Assembly: GCF_001693275.1 (NCBI RefSeq)
Contig: NZ_CP016477.1
Location: forward strand, 2,976,001 to 3,040,000
From: Picosynechococcus sp. PCC 7117
GTDB taxonomy: Bacteria; Cyanobacteriota; Cyanobacteriia; Cyanobacteriales; MRBY01
DNA: 64,000 nt
Direction: 5' to 3'
This document shows, piece by piece, positions 11,788-20,897 of the stretch. Numbering within the stretch: position 1 is the first letter of the stretch; every line of letters starts with the position of its first letter. The position numbers were made by a program, and so were the translations under genes. The notes beneath the pieces were generated by a model. That model was not told where the DNA came from. It saw only the letters and a program-made list of their open reading frames with translations, and did no database searches.

Positions 11788-12041
11788 GGGAGTTACCTAA
11801 GGAATAACTTAAAGGACGAAGAATACACCAGAAATAAGATCTCTGCTTCCCTATAATTTTTTCCGATAGGGGGATAGATTATTTTGGCGTTTTGTTGTAT
11901 TGAAGCCTACATTTTAAAAGAATTCATGCAGACTGTCGAGATACTGTATCATAGGCTGCTTTTAACTTAGATCAGCTTATTTTTGAGAAGCAATCCCCTG
12001 TAAAGGGTTTGTTACATGGATGTCAGCGAACAATCATGAAT

Positions 12042-12293
12042 GACACCTCTCTAGCTCCCCTCATAGGGGAGAATGGCACCCTCCGGCCTGGCGGCCACCT
12101 CCCTCAAGGGACACCCCTCTAGATCCCCTCATAGGGGAGAAGTTCATAGGACTCGCCAGTATACCCACCAACTGTTCCCCTCTTGAGAGGGGTTAGGGGA
12201 GTGTTAGCTCCAGGGGAAAGACACCCCTCTAACTCCCCTCGCAGGGGAGAAGGTACCCTCCGGCCTAGCGGCCACCTCCCTCAAGGGAGGATT
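12042..12293 (+). repeat. Modular GC-rich palindromic repeat, locus a (three units)
   Basis: Contains CTCCCCT-N3-AGGGGAG palindromes (12054-12072, 12123-12140, 12234-12250) and two copies of the second module, which begins CACCCTCCGGCC or TACCCTCCGGCC and ends in CTCCCTCAAGGGAGG. Between them, 12129-12205 holds a longer core that reappears inverted in locus b (14465-14545) at roughly 85% identity by eye. The distal unit overlaps the last codons of the helicase gene and supplies its stop. Confidence 0.85.
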
Positions 12294-14361: not shown

Positions 14362-14420
14362 CAGACCCCCGTTTGTGCCTAACAATTCTTTTACAATATT
14401 GACCTAACATAAAACACACA

Positions 14421-14590
14421 AAAAAATCCTCCCTTGAGGGAGGTGGCCATCAGGCCGGAGGGTGTCACTCCCCTAACCCCTCTCAAGAGGGGGACAGTTA
14501 GCGGGTATGCTGGCAAGACCGATGAACTTCTCTCCTTAAGGGGAGTTAGAGGAGTGGCCCCTAGAGGAGAGTTAGAGAGGTGGCCCTTAT
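14421..14590 (-). repeat. Modular GC-rich palindromic repeat, locus b (inverted relative to a)
   Basis: Read on the minus strand this has the same order of modules as locus a: CTCCCCTTAAGGAGAG, a conserved core, CCCCCTCTTGAGAGGGG, CACCCTCCGGCCTG, then the terminator-like CCTCCC-TCAA-GGGAGG followed by ATTTTTT (plus 14421-14443). It fills most of the 292-base gap between the divergent helicase and pcxA genes. Confidence 0.85.
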
Positions 14591-14653: not shown

Positions 14654-15941
14654 ATGAATCTAAGCACTTTCATCAAAAAAGCCCGCCGCTGGTTTTACGA
14701 CACCCCAGACCGTGCCCTGGAGCAAGCCTACCGTGCCGCCCTCAATATCCAGGCCATTGAACTCGAACACTTTGGTGGCAAACCCGTTTCTGGCCGCAAT
14801 GCTGACTACAGCGACAGTGTGATCCGCTATTTCCAAGGGGAAGTGCGCAAACAACTCAAAATTATCGAGGTGCGCCTGCGAGAATTTCGCTCCTTTAATA
14901 CTGTCGTTCCCGTCTCCGAAGAAACAATCCAAAAAAAAAGCGAGCAATATCTACTACCCCGATGCCGCCGACAAGCCGACCCTGATTATCGAGAAACTAC
15001 GCTTTATTGACGAAATCACCGGACGCTATGGCCGTGGTCTGTCGAAACAATCCGTCGCCCTTGTTCCCCTCAATGACGAGACTGCCCAAACCAATGGCGA
15101 TCGCCCCGATGACAAACCCAAGATCGAGACGGTGTCGGACAAAACTGGTCTCGTACCCCGCTCCATCATGCGGACATTCTCCCGAATCCAGCGGGAGATC
15201 GATCCCAAGTCCAACGAAGCAGAAGCAGAAGTAGTCACAAAATTTCGGCGATCGCGCAACAAAACCGCTGTTTCGATTCGGTTTCTCCTTACCCTCGTGA
15301 TTGTGCCCTTGTTGGTGCATCAGTTGGCGAAAATTGCGATTACGCCCTTCGTGGAAGAGCATTTTTTCACAGAGGCAAGCCCGGCATTGTTCGTAAATTC
15401 CGATCTTGAAAATGAAGCTTTTGAGGAATTAGAGCATTACCGAGCAACTTTAGAAATGCGGCAGTTGGTAGGGTTAGCGCCAGCTCTCACAGAGGCAGAA
15501 ATCACTGAAAAAATCCAAGAAAAAGCGACGGAAATTGCCCAGGATTATCGCGCCGAAAGTTACAATGCTTACGAAAACATTTTTTCAGATATTTTTAGCT
15601 TCTTTGCTTTTGTGGGGATTTTGTTAATCAGTAAGCGCGAAATTGCGATGTTAAAGGGCTTTTTAGATGAGATTGTCTATGGCCTTAGCGACTCAGCAAA
15701 GGCATTTCTTATTATTTTGTTTACGGATATTTTTGTGGGCTATCACTCCCCCCATGGCTGGGAAATTATCCTCGAAAATGTGGCAAAACATTTTGGTATT
15801 GCGGAGAGCCGAGATTTTAATTTTCTTTTTATTGCAACATTCCCTGTAATTCTGGATACGGTCTTAAAGTATTGGATTTTCCGTTATCTGAATCGTATTT
15901 CGCCTTCTGCCGTCGCCACGTACCGCAACATGAACGAGTAA
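14654..15941 (+). pseudogene. pcxA: Proton-exchange protein PcxA (CotA/CemA family), frameshifted
   Basis: PcxA is a plasma-membrane protein needed for light-driven Na+-dependent proton extrusion and is related to chloroplast CemA. The first frame (14654-15010) begins MNLSTFIKKARRWFYDTPDR and stops early. The rest continues one base later, through KPTLIIEKLRFIDEITGRYG, the hydrophobic segment VSIRFLLTLVIVPLLVHQ and the conserved CemA-like C-terminus DIFVGYHSPHGWE to 15941. The break lies in a run of nine A at 14931-14939; eight A would give QKKASNIYYPDAADKP and restore a protein of 428 residues, full length for the family. It could be a true mutation, a sequencing error, or slippage-corrected expression. 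The stop codon abuts repeat locus c. Confidence 0.88.
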
Positions 15942-16022
15942 AAAATCCTCCCTTGAGGGAGGTGGTCGAAGACCGGAGTGTGCAATCCTCCCATTAAGGG
16001 GAGCTAGAGAAGTGTCTCTATA
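15941..16022 (-). repeat. Modular GC-rich palindromic repeat, locus c
   Basis: CCTCCC-TTGA-GGGAGG with its flanking A-run (T-run on the minus strand) starts in the pcxA stop codon, followed by GTGGTCGAAGACCGGAGTGTG and a degenerate CTCCCATTAAGGGGAG palindrome. Same orientation as locus b. It sits between the convergent pcxA and pilin genes. Confidence 0.8.
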
Positions 16023-16063: not shown

Positions 16064-16699
16064 TTAGCGGTCTGTGAGAACAGTTTTGTAGTGGGTGCCG
16101 TCACAGCGGACGGCATCGGCATCGGTAATCGCATCGGGGTTTAGTTGCATACCCCCGGTGCTAAAACTACCAGAACCATCAATCACTTCTAGGGTAATAT
16201 TAGCAGCAGTACTTTGTTCTTCGCAGACGATAGACTTTAGGGTAACAACACCATTGTTGACATATAAAACAACACCACCAGCATAATTTTTAACTGCTAA
16301 AGGATCTTGGGGATTTGCAAATAAATATGTTGCATAGGGAATTGCGGTATTCTCAGTTAATCCTGGTGTTCCGCCAGAGTAGACATTTGTATAGCTGTAA
16401 TTATCACTGACGACCCTAATCCCAAAAATAAGTTCAGAAATAGAGTCAGCAAAACGACTATTTTCTTGATAAAAACCGAGTTGACTACGATTAACAATAC
16501 CTAAAACATTTCGTGCTTCTGTTTGTCGTGCCTTGGCTGAAAATCCCAAGTATGCAGGCCAGGCTATTAGTGCCAGAATTGCAACAATTAGTATTGAGAT
16601 TAATAGTTCAATTAGTGTTAATCCTTGAATATAATTCAAGTTATTTAATTTTTTGTCTTGAGCTTTTTTAGTATGCATATGATTAAATTTATCAACCAT
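16064..16699 (-). CDS. Type IV pilin-like protein
   Basis: 211 residues with a prepilin leader ending at Gly26 (YIQG|LTLIELL), the +5 glutamate, and a hydrophobic alpha-1 helix ILIVAILALIAWPAYLG. The C-terminal part carries a cysteine pair about 40 residues apart (VCEEQ ... VRCDG), a D-region-like loop that is also present in the neighbouring pilin. ATGs exist at 16699 and 16678; neither has a clear Shine-Dalgarno. It is more divergent than the pilin upstream and may be a minor pilin. It lies 188 bases downstream of pilA, beyond a terminator. Confidence 0.85.
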   Translation of the reverse strand: MVDKFNHMHTKKAQDKKLNNLNYIQGLTLIELLISILIVAILALIAWPAYLGFSAKARQTEARNVLGIVNRSQLGFYQENSRFADSISELIFGIRVVSDNYSYTNVYSGGTPGLTENTAIPYATYLFANPQDPLAVKNYAGGVVLYVNNGVVTLKSIVCEEQSTAANITLEVIDGSGSFSTGGMQLNPDAITDADAVRCDGTHYKTVLTDR

Positions 16700-16887: not shown

Positions 16888-17469
16888 TTAGTTACTGTCA
16901 CCAAGTTCGATACTAGTAGTGCCGTCATTAGGACAAGTGATTGCCCCTTCAGCACTACCAGTAGTAGAAAAGCTAGCTGCAGGAAGACCAGGAACAAGAG
17001 TAGGATCGACTTCTTCACAAATAGATGTTGTTGTCGTTGTGTTACCGTTCTCTGTAAACACAGCAGCAGCACCTAAATAGTCTTTAACAGCTTGAGCATC
17101 TGCTGCGGTCGCAAACATTGTGGCATTACTATTAGCAGGACTAGAAAAACTACCATTATTTTGTGCAGCAGCATCACCGTAAGAGTAGTTTTCTGTTTCG
17201 TTGGCAAGACCTAAACCAAGAGCAGCAATGTTAGTAGCAAATGTTTGATCTTCTAAATAGGCTGCCTGCTGAGCTTTATTCAAAGAAGCAAGAGCTTGTT
17301 TCGCTTCGGACTGACGGGCTTTAGCGGCTTGGTTCAAGAATGCGGGCAGGGCGATAGCAGACAGAATACCGATGATGATGATTACAACGAGCAGTTCAAT
17401 CAGAGTAAAACCTTTGTCAGCTTTCTTCTTGTTGAGTTGTTGCAGAAGCTTAAAAGTGAAATTTTTCAT
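16888..17469 (-). CDS. pilA: Major-type type IV pilin
   Basis: 193 residues from the ATG at 17469, preceded by AAGGAG ten bases upstream; the longer frame to 17508 is therefore unlikely. Prepilin cleavage falls at ADKG|FTLIELLVVII with Glu at +5 and the aliphatic helix ending in LPAFLNQAAKARQSEAKQA, the standard cyanobacterial pilin pattern. The C-terminal cysteines (ICEEVD ... ITCPND) probably form the D-region disulphide. Pilins build the extracellular pilus used for motility, adhesion and DNA uptake. It forms a pair with the pilin at 16064. Confidence 0.92.
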   Translation of the reverse strand: MKNFTFKLLQQLNKKKADKGFTLIELLVVIIIIGILSAIALPAFLNQAAKARQSEAKQALASLNKAQQAAYLEDQTFATNIAALGLGLANETENYSYGDAAAQNNGSFSSPANSNATMFATAADAQAVKDYLGAAAVFTENGNTTTTTSICEEVDPTLVPGLPAASFSTTGSAEGAITCPNDGTTSIELGDSN

Positions 17470-17559
17470 TTGGGGGCATCTCCTTATCCCGGCCTCAACC
17501 GGAATCATGTATCCGTTAACCCTAAATTACCCACCCACTTTCTTTTCCTATCACCCCCC

Positions 17560-17780
17560 AAAAAAATAGATCTCCCCTTCGGGGGGAGATGCCGTCAGGC
17601 AGAGGGGGGGTTACCCCAGGGGAGTTAGAGAGGTGTTCTCAATAGGTTACTGCTCAACCCACCCCAACCCCTCCCAGGAGGGGATAATTGGCCGGTGTTC
17701 CGGAAAGTTCTAAAAATCCTCTCTTGAGGGAGGTGGTCGAAGACCGGAGGGTGGTATCCCTAGAGGGCTGTCCCAAAAAA
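17560..17780 (-). repeat. Modular GC-rich palindromic repeat, locus d
   Basis: Fills the gap between pilA and the DUF559 gene. Contains ATCTCCCCTTCGGGGGGAGAT (17569-17589), CAGGGGAGTTAGAGAGGTG, CCCCTCCCAGGAGGGG (17669-17684) with the core GATAATTGGCCGGTGTTCCGG, and CTCTTGAGGGAGGTGGTCGAAGACCGGAGGGTG. The middle part reappears inverted in locus f. I see no gene in 17509-17818. Confidence 0.85.
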
Positions 17781-17818
17781 AAGTAGAACGTAAGATTACA
17801 AGAAAAACCATCCTTCCC

Positions 17819-18220
17819 ATGCGCCGTAAAATTCTGCCCTACAACAAACATCTCGTCGGACGCGCCCGCCAACTCCGCAAAACCATGACCAAAGGCGAAA
17901 TAATCCTCTGGCAACACCTCCGCAAAAAACAAATCCTCGGTGTCAGCTTTCTGCGCCAACGCCCCATCGACCAATTTATCGTTGACTTTTATTGCAAGGA
18001 CTGGATGCTCGCCATCGAAATCGACGGCAGTAGCCACGATAGCCTCGCCGCCCAAGAACGAGACGCTTATCGCCAAGCCAAACTCGAAGCTCTAGGCGTT
18101 TCTTTCCTCCGTTTCAGCGAATACGATGCCCAAAATCACCCAGAGGCGATCGCCGAAACTATCAAAACCTGGCTCCTCACCCACCCCCAAAAAAAAGTTC
18201 TCCCCTCGCAGGGGAGTTAG
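17819..18220 (+). CDS. DUF559-family endonuclease-like protein (Vsr/PD-(D/E)XK type)
   Basis: 133 residues. The DUF559 pattern is complete: RARQLRKTMTKGEIILWQHL, FLRQRPIDQFIVDFYC, LAIEIDGSSHD, RDAYRQAKLEALGVSFLRF. Asp56, Glu67 and Asp69 fit a PD-(D/E)XK-like metal site as in Vsr-related nucleases. The biochemical function of DUF559 proteins is not established. The last residues KKVLPSQGS and the stop codon are encoded by repeat locus e, and locus d ends about 40 bases before the start. From memory, DUF559 genes in other bacteria are also often embedded in such palindromic repeats, which suggests a functional link. No Shine-Dalgarno is obvious. Confidence 0.85.
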   Translation: MRRKILPYNKHLVGRARQLRKTMTKGEIILWQHLRKKQILGVSFLRQRPIDQFIVDFYCKDWMLAIEIDGSSHDSLAAQERDAYRQAKLEALGVSFLRFSEYDAQNHPEAIAETIKTWLLTHPQKKVLPSQGS

Positions 18221-18270
18221 AGGGGTGTCCCTTGAGGGAGGTGGTCGAAGGCCGGAGGGTGTTCTCTCCA
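18189..18270 (-). repeat. Modular GC-rich palindromic repeat, locus e
   Basis: CTCCCCTCGCAGGGGAG is followed by GAGGGGTGTCCCTTGAGGGAGGTGG and GTCGAAGGCCGGAGGGTG. It overlaps the 3' end of the DUF559 gene by about 32 bases and precedes the argG promoter region. Confidence 0.85.
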
Positions 18271-18401: not shown

Positions 18402-19601
18402 ATGGGTCGCGCAGAAAAAGTTGTCCTCGCCTATTCCGGCGGTGTCGATACATCCGTTTGTATTCCCTATCTCATGCACGAATGGGGCGTCAAGGAAGTA
18501 ATTACCCTTGCCGCAGATTTAGGACAAGGCGAGGAGCTAGGCCCAATTAAACAAAAAGCCTTAAATTCTGGGGCTGTAGTTTCCCTCGTTGAAGATGGCC
18601 GCGAAGAATTTATTACCGATTACGCTTTCCCCGCGATTAAAGCCAATGCCCTCTACGAAAATCGCTATCCCCTCGCCACCGCTTTAGCGCGTCCCCTCAT
18701 TGCGAAAATGCTCGTCCGGGCCGCCGAAAAATATGGGGCTGATGCCGTTGCCCACGGTTGTACCGCGAAAGGGAATGACCAAGTACGTTTCGACCTGGGG
18801 ATTTTGGCGCAAAACCCAGAAATCAAAGTGCTCGCACCAGCGCGGGAATGGGGCATGAGCCGGGAAGAAGCGATTACCTATGGTGAACAATATGGGCTGA
18901 CCTTCCCCGTGAAAAAATCTTCGCCGTTTAGTATTGATAAAAACCTGCTCGGTCGCAGTATTGAGGCTGGCCCCCTCGAAGATCCGATGTGCGAACCCCC
19001 CGAAGAGGTTTTTGAAATGGTGAAAGCTATTTCTGACACCCCCGATGAACCAGAATATTTAGAGATTAGCTTTGAAAAAGGCGTCCCAGTGACGGTGAAT
19101 GGCGAAGCCCTTGGCCCGGTGGCTTTAATTTCTAAGTTGAATGAGATCGTCGGAAACCATGGCATTGGCCGGATTGACATGATCGAAAACCGTGTGGTCG
19201 GCATTAAATCCCGCGAAATCTATGAATCTCCGGCGATGTGTGTCCTGGTGGATGCCCACCGCGATTTGGAAAGTTTAACCCTCACCGCCGATGTGACCCA
19301 ATATAAGCGCGGCATGGAGCAGACTTATTCCGAGTTGATTTATCGGGGTCTGTGGTTCTCGCCCCTGAAGCAAGCCGTAGATGCGTTTATCGAGCAAACT
19401 CAGGAACGGGTTACGGGCGTTGTGCGCCTCAAACTTCACAAAGGAACAGCGCGGATCGTCGGTCGTCGTTCTGAGAAATCAATTTACACGCCGGATCTGG
19501 CAACCTACGGGGCCGATGACAAGTTTAACCACGAGTCGGCGGAAGGGTTTATTTATATTTGGGGTCTTCCTACTCGCGTTTGGGCTCAGGCCAATAAGTA
19601 A
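18402..19601 (+). CDS. argG: Argininosuccinate synthase
   Basis: Joins citrulline and aspartate using ATP in arginine synthesis. The 399 residues start [19 protein letters not shown], the PP-loop AYSGGVDTS being the nucleotide site. They continue with [50 protein letters not shown] and the C-terminal [17 protein letters not shown]. Length and start are standard. A -10-like TATAAT at 18362-18367 lies 35 bases before the ATG; I cannot find a good -35. The gene is flanked by repeat loci e and f, the latter beginning directly at the stop codon. Confidence 0.97.
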
Positions 19602-19867
19602 CGAACACCCATCTAGCTCCCCTCAAGGGGAGTGGCACCCTCCGCCTGCGGCACCTCCCTCAAGGGAGGATTTAGGGGGGAGCTTTTCCGAAACATCAGC
19701 CAATTATCCCCTCCTGGGAGGGGCTAGGCTTCGACGTGAGACTTCGGCGTGAGCTCAGTCGAACGCTCAGCCGAACGGGTGGGTTAGCCAGTAGCCTACT
19801 GAAATTCCCCTACAGGGATATCACCCTCAGGCCTAGCGGCCACCTCCCTTGAGGGAGGATTTTTTTG
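19602..19867 (+). repeat. Modular GC-rich palindromic repeat, locus f, with nested insertion
   Basis: Begins immediately after the argG stop. Holds CTCCCCTCAAGGGGAG, CACCCTCCGCCTGCGGCACC, a first CTCCCTCAAGGGAGG, a core shared inverted with locus d (CCAATTATCCCCTCCTGGGA), then about 48 bases rich in TTCG and CAGTCGAACG words (about 19729-19776) that are absent from locus d. It ends with a terminator-like CCTCCC-TTGA-GGGAGG followed by ATTTTTTT (19843-19866). That last hairpin is a credible argG terminator. No gene is seen in 19602-19943. Confidence 0.85.
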
Positions 19868-19943: not shown

Positions 19944-20897
19944 ATGGAAATCACATTTTTAGGAACCAGTTCTGGTGTGCCGACCCGGGCACGCAATGTA
20001 TCAAGTGTGGCGTTGCGATTACCGCAGCGGGCCGAGGCTTGGCTCTTTGACTGTGGCGAAGGAACCCAGCATCAACTTCTCCGTAGTGATCTCCGTTCGT
20101 CCCAAATTAGCCGCATTTTTATTACCCATATGCACGGCGATCATATTTTTGGGCTAATGGGTCTGATCGCCAGCATGGGCCTCGCGGGAACGGGACATCC
20201 CTTGGAAATCTATGGCCCTCCTGGTTTAGAAGAATATCTGCGGGCCTGTGAAAAGTATTCCTATATGCGCATTGGCGATCGCCTGCGGGTACATTTAGTC
20301 AAACCCGGCTTAGTCTTCGAAGATAAAGAATTTCAAGTGACCTGTTTACCGCTCAAACACCGAGTCACAGCCTTTGGGTATCGGGTGACTGAAAAGGATC
20401 GTCCCGGCAGATTTAACCTCGCTAAAGCGCAAAAATTGGGGATTCCCCCTGGCCCCATTTATGGCGACCTCAAAAAAGGGAAAGTCGTCACCCTCGATGA
20501 TGGCCGCAAAATTAACGGCTCAGACCTCTGTGGTCAACCGGAAATTGGCCGAAAAATGGTCTATTGTACCGACACTGTTTTTTGTGAGGCGGCGGTGGAG
20601 TTAGCCCAGGATGCGGACGTCTTAATTCACGAGGCAACTTTTGCCCACAAGGATGCAGAGATGGCCTTTGATCGGCTCCATTCCACTTCGACGATGGCCG
20701 CCCAGGTTGCCCTTTTGGCCCAGGTGAAGCAACTGATCATGACCCACTTTAGCCCCCGTTATATGCCGGGAAATGAGCTGACGTTAGATGATCTTTTGGC
20801 TGAGGCCCGGGCGATTTTTCCCAATACGATCATGGCGAAGGACTTTTTAAACTATGCGATTCCGCGTCGCAAGGCCCTAGCCCAGAGCTTACATTAG
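19944..20897 (+). CDS. rnz: Ribonuclease Z (tRNA 3'-processing)
   Basis: A metallo-beta-lactamase-fold nuclease that trims tRNA 3' trailers. The 317 residues start [20 protein letters not shown] and carry the zinc motif [15 protein letters not shown]. Further family landmarks are [39 protein letters not shown] and [11 protein letters not shown] start and length are normal for RNase Z. The stop overlaps the convergent frp by 9 bases. Confidence 0.96.

Follow-up and report, generated by a model that had tools for sequence, protein, structure and literature searches.

Many bacterial genomes contain short palindromic repeats, and we know of no spreading enzyme for large families of them. Among the described systems, REPIN-RAYT is one of the closest to the arrangement studied here. 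Both have inverted palindrome pairs, a tag beside the hairpin, a gene flanked by repeats, dispersed pairs without a gene, and tandem arrays (PMC3116915). The defining feature of REPIN-RAYT is a repeat-flanked Y1 transposase of the HUH type, whereas the enzyme here is a Vsr-like nuclease of the DUF559 family and none of 27 Y1_Tnp loci had inverted flanking repeats. Further differences are that the GTAG tag is absent here, and that DUF559 genes of several lineages occur within one genome and also lie within coding genes. In-frame palindromes have already been described as Rickettsia palindromic elements and as REPs within genes (PMC10969869, PMC3733652), and for the CGTC-tagged REPs the authors state that there is no dedicated transposase (PMC3733652). 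Compared by description, these families resemble ours in both respects, but the parts of those sources drawn upon report no DUF559 gene, and the arms described below carry a tag of the YTRGG type. Among open PMC papers we found none that links DUF559 to palindromic repeats.

We analyzed a window of 64,000 nucleotides, positions 2976001-3040000 of contig C1 of the 3.43-Mb cyanobacterial genome G000. It contains a DUF559 gene at 17819-18220 on the forward strand, with a type IV pilin-like gene on one side and argG on the other. The gene encodes 133 aa with a predicted Vsr-like / EDxHD-type nuclease fold, and the ORF matches PF04480 (DUF559) with an E-value of 6e-28 and 97.3 bits, the curated cut-off being 20.6. 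Repeat copies bracket the gene at 17712-17759 upstream and at 18196-18227 and 18228-18265 downstream, as a preliminary description of this DNA had noted. It had also placed the last codons of the gene in repeat sequence. Indeed, about eight C-terminal codons and the stop (...KVLPSQGS, then TAG) fall in TTCTCCCCTCGCAGGGGAGTTAG, the repeat nature of which is seen from an inverted match of 91% between 12220-12251 and 18198-18229. The further statement that this is the sole nuclease gene in the repeat cluster has to be narrowed, since a tRNase Z-like metallo-beta-lactamase protein is encoded there as well (19944-20897); the DUF559 gene is the only candidate DNA nuclease recognized in the cluster. 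Two pilin-like genes border the cluster (16888-17508 and 16064-16699), the former of which weakly matches the DNA-uptake receptor ComP (E 1.8e-4).

The repeats of the window belong to two alternating subtypes, subtype 1 consisting of a hairpin, GTGG, a small hairpin and CCGGAGGGTG, and subtype 2 of a hairpin followed by TTAGAGGGGTG. Upstream of the gene, on the forward strand, lie the outer repeats CTCCCCTTCGGGGGGAG and ...CCCCAGGGGAGTTAGAGAGGTG (17572-17635), the palindrome CCCCTCCCAGGAGGGG with a spacer (17663-17706; inverted partner at 19685-19728, 89%) and the subtype 1 copy at 17712-17759, which belongs to family D1 (92% to the reference copy) and points at the gene. Downstream, also on the forward strand, the subtype 2 copy at 18196-18227 is made up of the hairpin CTCCCCTCGCAGGGGAG and its tag, supplies the stop codon and has a DNA fold z-score of -2.1. 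It is followed at 18228-18265 by a subtype 1 copy in the same orientation as the one at 17712-17759. The flanks of this DUF559 copy are direct, not inverted, repeats (direct score 60, inverted score 26). The same cluster includes a pair of repeats (19600-19672, reverse strand) that separates argG from the tRNase Z-like gene. Further copies are a subtype 1 repeat at 19822-19867 (reverse strand; inverted relative to 14419-14464, 87%), a pair of subtypes 1 and 2 at 15941-16016 (forward strand), and repeat clusters at 14419-14590 (forward strand) and, at the left edge of the region, at 12038-12293 (reverse strand).

In the window, 15 occurrences of two simple palindrome patterns were counted; shuffled windows had 0.49 on average and at most 4. 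The 17-mer CTCCCTTGAGGGAGGTG, with up to two mismatches, has 35 copies genome-wide and its reversed control none; 14 of the 35 lie within 25 kb of the window ORF, or 9 of 23 when copies less than 500 bp apart are merged (p = 2e-11). An Rfam search of 11500-38000 gave no match. The window unit is probably a decayed chromosomal copy inside a local burst of such repeats. Its DUF559 protein is still under purifying selection, with a dN/dS of 0.09 relative to the ortholog in the same-genus genome G081. The second DUF559 gene of the genome (L001), next to an hsdS-like gene, is boxed by repeats of a different sequence and ends in one. Distant from both genes, positions 1964633-1964834 of C1 hold six copies of a repeat variant with a 37-bp period. 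The flanks of three loci in our collection (L257, L273, L068) have the two-hairpin layout of subtype 1 (hairpin, GTG, small hairpin, GGAGGG), and the subtype is therefore widespread.

DUF559 nucleases are 110-140 aa in size. Sixteen residues are invariant in 30 DUF559 proteins, and 11 in 24 sequences that include relatives from viral contigs. In the latter alignment the invariant residues include E27, D56, H73 and D82, which we take by their order to be the EDxHD motif. With an AlphaFold model of the protein (pLDDT 88.6), Foldseek ranked the DUF559 structure 3hrl first, then the homing endonuclease I-Bth0305I (3r3p, E 3.6e-4) and then Vsr (1vsr, E 0.026, prob 1.0). The first of these, NGO0050, is a solved member of the same Pfam family whose entry title records no function, and the closest characterized fold outside DUF559 is that of I-Bth0305I. 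DUF559 shares with this EDxHD enzyme the fold of the catalytic domain and the conserved residue order E, D, H, D, but no intron, intein or added DNA-binding region was seen with DUF559, and there are hairpin arms instead. With the Vsr repair endonuclease (1vsr, 1cw0) it shares the fold only, and it differs in its repeat-bounded mobile context; the Vsr nick site, presumably CTWGG, resembles the tag of the arms. Given the invariant residues, the fold matches and the low dN/dS, DUF559 looks like a maintained predicted nuclease with the fold of homing and repair enzymes.

DUF559 is carried by 165 of 244 genomes of the phylum. To measure its association with repeats, the 300 bp upstream of the domain were compared with the 300 bp downstream, and an inverted match with a score of at least 30 was counted as positive. 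Outside family f30, 29 of 40 loci had such a match; so did 25 of 29 automatically fetched loci, most of them f30, 6 of 11 from other phyla and 17 of the 28 viral contigs with DUF559. The controls gave 0 of 29 Uma2 genes, 0 of 27 Y1_Tnp genes and 3 of 801 shifted positions. The 40 non-f30 regions (41 domains) were drawn among the matches listed, f30 and most long fused ORFs being left out and L077 dropped from the test. For the viral set, 33 of 80 loci with near-complete domains were chosen, of which five were then dropped for short flanks; each control set started from 30 genes, the remainder being cut by contig ends. The loci from other phyla came from viral and plasmid collections, with one contributed by a scan of genome contigs, and the positives among them are from Deinococcus, Sphingomonas, Novosphingobium, Sinorhizobium and Aequorivita. 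The four sets, five cyanobacterial plasmid loci and three loci from the genus of the window make up 116 loci, not all independent, 80 of which have an inverted match and 89 an inverted or direct one (control genes, 0/56 and 6/56); 36 of these partly non-independent loci lack an inverted match and 27 lack either kind. A C/T-arm hairpin was present in at least one flank of 69 of 80 DUF559 loci and of 2 of 56 controls. The association of DUF559 with inverted hairpin repeats in bacteria of several phyla is nearly certain, in accordance with the statement of the preliminary description that DUF559 ORFs of many unrelated bacteria adjoin such palindromes. A check on whether DUF559 phylogeny tracks repeat sequence had also been proposed there, and repeat similarity and DUF559 similarity are correlated (Mantel r 0.26, 0 of 500 permutations as high; species relatedness not corrected for). 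Three genomes (G048, G062, G165) each have one A and one B nuclease, each paired with its own arm type. For five DUF559 units (L001, L112, L155, L067, L114), a restriction-modification or BREX-like methyltransferase gene is the host or the neighbor.

The arms are typically built of a pyrimidine/purine (C/T-G/A) hairpin and, after it, a conserved G-rich tag whose usual form is GGGG-YTRGG-GGG. At 29 loci with a free-standing gene both tags face the gene, and the opposite layout was seen at one. The stop codon lies within the tag in 14 of 71 DUF559 genes (the misframed L105 left out), compared with 6 of 2661 control stop triplets. Arms also occur as gene-less pairs of an L arm, a spacer and an R arm, which fold as a three-way structure; the pair at L085 has a DNA fold of -29.8 kcal/mol (z -4.6). 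Among the type A R arms, 37 of the 60 that were read have an L arm partner, with a modal overall length of 85 bp and differing flanks. These are, like REPINs, dispersed inverted pairs of palindromic units. Direct flank repeats of 2-6 bp were not significantly in excess among 34 unique type A pairs, so that the target duplication of most DDE insertion sequences and MITEs is not seen in them. The pairs looked palindromic past the core, but a target-site dyad was rejected: the excess over the 34 unique pairs was reached by 90 of 1000 shuffles and is not significant.

Type A units from six genomes (L076, L081, L085, L089, L092, L093) have genes that are 91-98% identical at the nucleotide level and lie at differing sites, with about 470-890 bp alignable. 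At L085 and L092 the alignment is confined to the gene and its repeats, and its edges coincide with the arm edges; one unit is thus found at different sites with its edges at the termini. The window site is empty in G209 and G244 of the same genus, where the pilin gene is joined to argG with neither gene nor repeats, and priA is uninterrupted in most f30 genomes. These empty sites do not resolve to the exact base, and no insertion was pinned to the base between very close strains. For the type B unit, the conserved gene downstream of it was found in 60 of 60 family genomes searched. Among 30 loci fetched, the unit is present in three, G266 has a single palindrome built of the outer-end sequences of the unit and G022 a lone arm; no B arm was seen at the remaining readable sites (one locus lacks the anchor). 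In Sinorhizobium and related genera, arms occur in 145 plasmid records, only 4 of which have the gene with at least 80% query coverage. A clean empty site was found neither among the Sinorhizobium plasmids with arms nor among Picosynechococcus plasmids.

Units also reside inside genes. In f30, DUF559 and its arms are inserted in frame in PriA, immediately ahead of the Walker A motif, and other f30 host genes encode an ispE-like GHMP kinase and an M14 peptidase (in frame) and a radical SAM protein (at the end). In other genomes DUF559 and arms are found, likewise in frame, in Eco57I, MmeI and type ISP methyltransferases. A single ispE-like GHMP kinase ORF (L037:334-2064) contains two DUF559 domains, as if two units had inserted. 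Taken together, the shifted units, the empty sites and the in-frame insertions make it very likely that the DUF559 gene and its arms move as one unit, and there is good support for the earlier idea of a mobile system made up of gene and repeats.

We propose that DUF559 together with its hairpin arms makes up a single selfish mobile element of ∼0.5-0.6 kb, in which the candidate nuclease mobilizes the arms, and we put the probability of this at about 0.58. On balance, DUF559 is probably the mobilizing enzyme. The nuclease would recognize hairpin and tag and nick or cut there, and the exposed strand could then be copied or recombined elsewhere without target duplication. Where two arms bracket the gene, it would be carried along; where they do not, gene-less arm pairs would be left, REPIN-like and often ∼85 bp long. 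We see even odds that this extends to a pan-bacterial class of tiny elements that encode no protein but a DUF559 nuclease and terminate in hairpins with a GGGG-YTRGG-type tag; in these the nuclease would mobilize itself as well as large families of palindromes without a gene, among them in-frame inserts in essential genes. DUF559 is a direct candidate for a spreading enzyme, being widespread, experimentally tractable and boxed by repeats in several phyla. If it drives the movement, short repeats would have a new route of spread through bacterial genomes, and the mobilizing chemistry would have no relation to that of DDE, HUH or tyrosine/serine recombinases. It could account for many bacterial palindromic repeat families without a known transposase and would help to explain short palindromes in frame inside genes such as priA.

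The palindromes could instead be spread by something else, and DUF559 would then act as a stand-alone homing nuclease. It would cut either the palindromes or a fixed site (e.g., the priA linker), and its gene would be copied in by repair with the arms as homology. We consider this unlikely, but several observations speak for it. The priA insertion place is identical in seven f30 genomes of five genera, with sister genomes lacking the insert, and this pattern favors a homing component; judged by ORF length, 5 of 116 priA ORFs have an insert, and G128 and G220 are two further genomes. The closest characterized non-DUF559 fold is that of I-Bth0305I of the EDxHD family (PMC3943268), solo palindromes stand in G266 and G022 where relatives have the gene, and arms are plentiful without the gene in G170. 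The site in G080 speaks against it. The filled priA site of G220 reads TGACCCCTCACCC...gene...GGGTGAGGGGTCA, whereas that of the same-genus G080 retains the outer pieces only, its outer flanks otherwise matching; judged from its sequence, G080 is an internal-deletion scar and not an intact repeat. Moreover, no other enzyme was seen bounded by repeats (0 of 56 Uma2 and Y1_Tnp loci), and within one genome each DUF559 lineage goes with arms of its own type.

Arms without the gene bear on the single-element reading as well. A relation between repeat copy number and the presence of DUF559, anticipated in the preliminary description, was found for one arm family and not for the other. Counted within family f6, with arms at the gene's own flanks subtracted by hand, family B arms were commoner with the B nuclease (mean 2.3 in 9 carriers vs. 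0.5 in 19 non-carriers, MWU p 0.002), while family A arms showed no association with the A nuclease (2.7 in 7 carriers, 3.3 in 21 non-carriers, p 0.20), and G170 has 24 family A arms and no DUF559 match. For the generic tag motif GGGGYTRGGGG, enrichment with DUF559 was only weak (p 0.012 for the excess, p 0.14 for the ratio). With this mixed outcome we rejected copy-number correlation as proof. No DUF559 relics were found at 9 sampled sites of A arms in G170. Intact gene-less type A pairs are seen in this genome (L327 to L335), some of them in tandem at 185 bp. The G170 arms, the family A counts, the 145 plasmid records and the direct flanks of the window gene indicate that either the arms outlive the enzyme or the enzyme homes into arms spread otherwise. 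REP singlets have been argued to be remnants of REPINs, which is a parallel for arms outliving their enzyme.

It is quite improbable that another enzyme, e.g., a RAYT or other transposase, moves the repeats and that DUF559 was merely trapped between two copies. Arms do exist without DUF559, and REPIN-RAYT provides a precedent for the movement of similar structures (PMC3116915), but the same gene family would then have been trapped in several phyla between arms of unrelated sequence, and Y1_Tnp genes are themselves not flanked by repeats (0/27). A RAYT as the mobilizer was rejected because the genome's own Y1 loci, an IS200/605-type TnpA-TnpB locus as judged by eye (L033) and a partial Y1 match (L034), carry none of these palindromes. 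Y1_Tnp is also absent from several DUF559-rich f30 genomes, e.g., G218, G117, G006 and G025, and RAYTs are therefore not required.

That DUF559 is an ordinary Vsr-like repair or defense gene in repeat-rich, weakly constrained intergenic DNA is very improbable and disfavored: Caulobacter VsrA, which carries DUF559 and was read as a mismatch-repair enzyme, is linked to cytosine methylation (PMC12907096) and several DUF559 copies lie near type I or BREX-like methyltransferase genes, but general repeat density is controlled for by the shifted positions and the Uma2 set, and the in-frame copies inside priA and ispE-like genes would be left unexplained. The reading of VsrA as a repair enzyme also counts against the mobile-element proposal.

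In Aequorivita (L105:4340-4880) the DUF559 gene is followed by several tandem L-spacer-R units with near-identical spacers. These resemble the tandem REPIN clusters that have been described for Pseudomonas.
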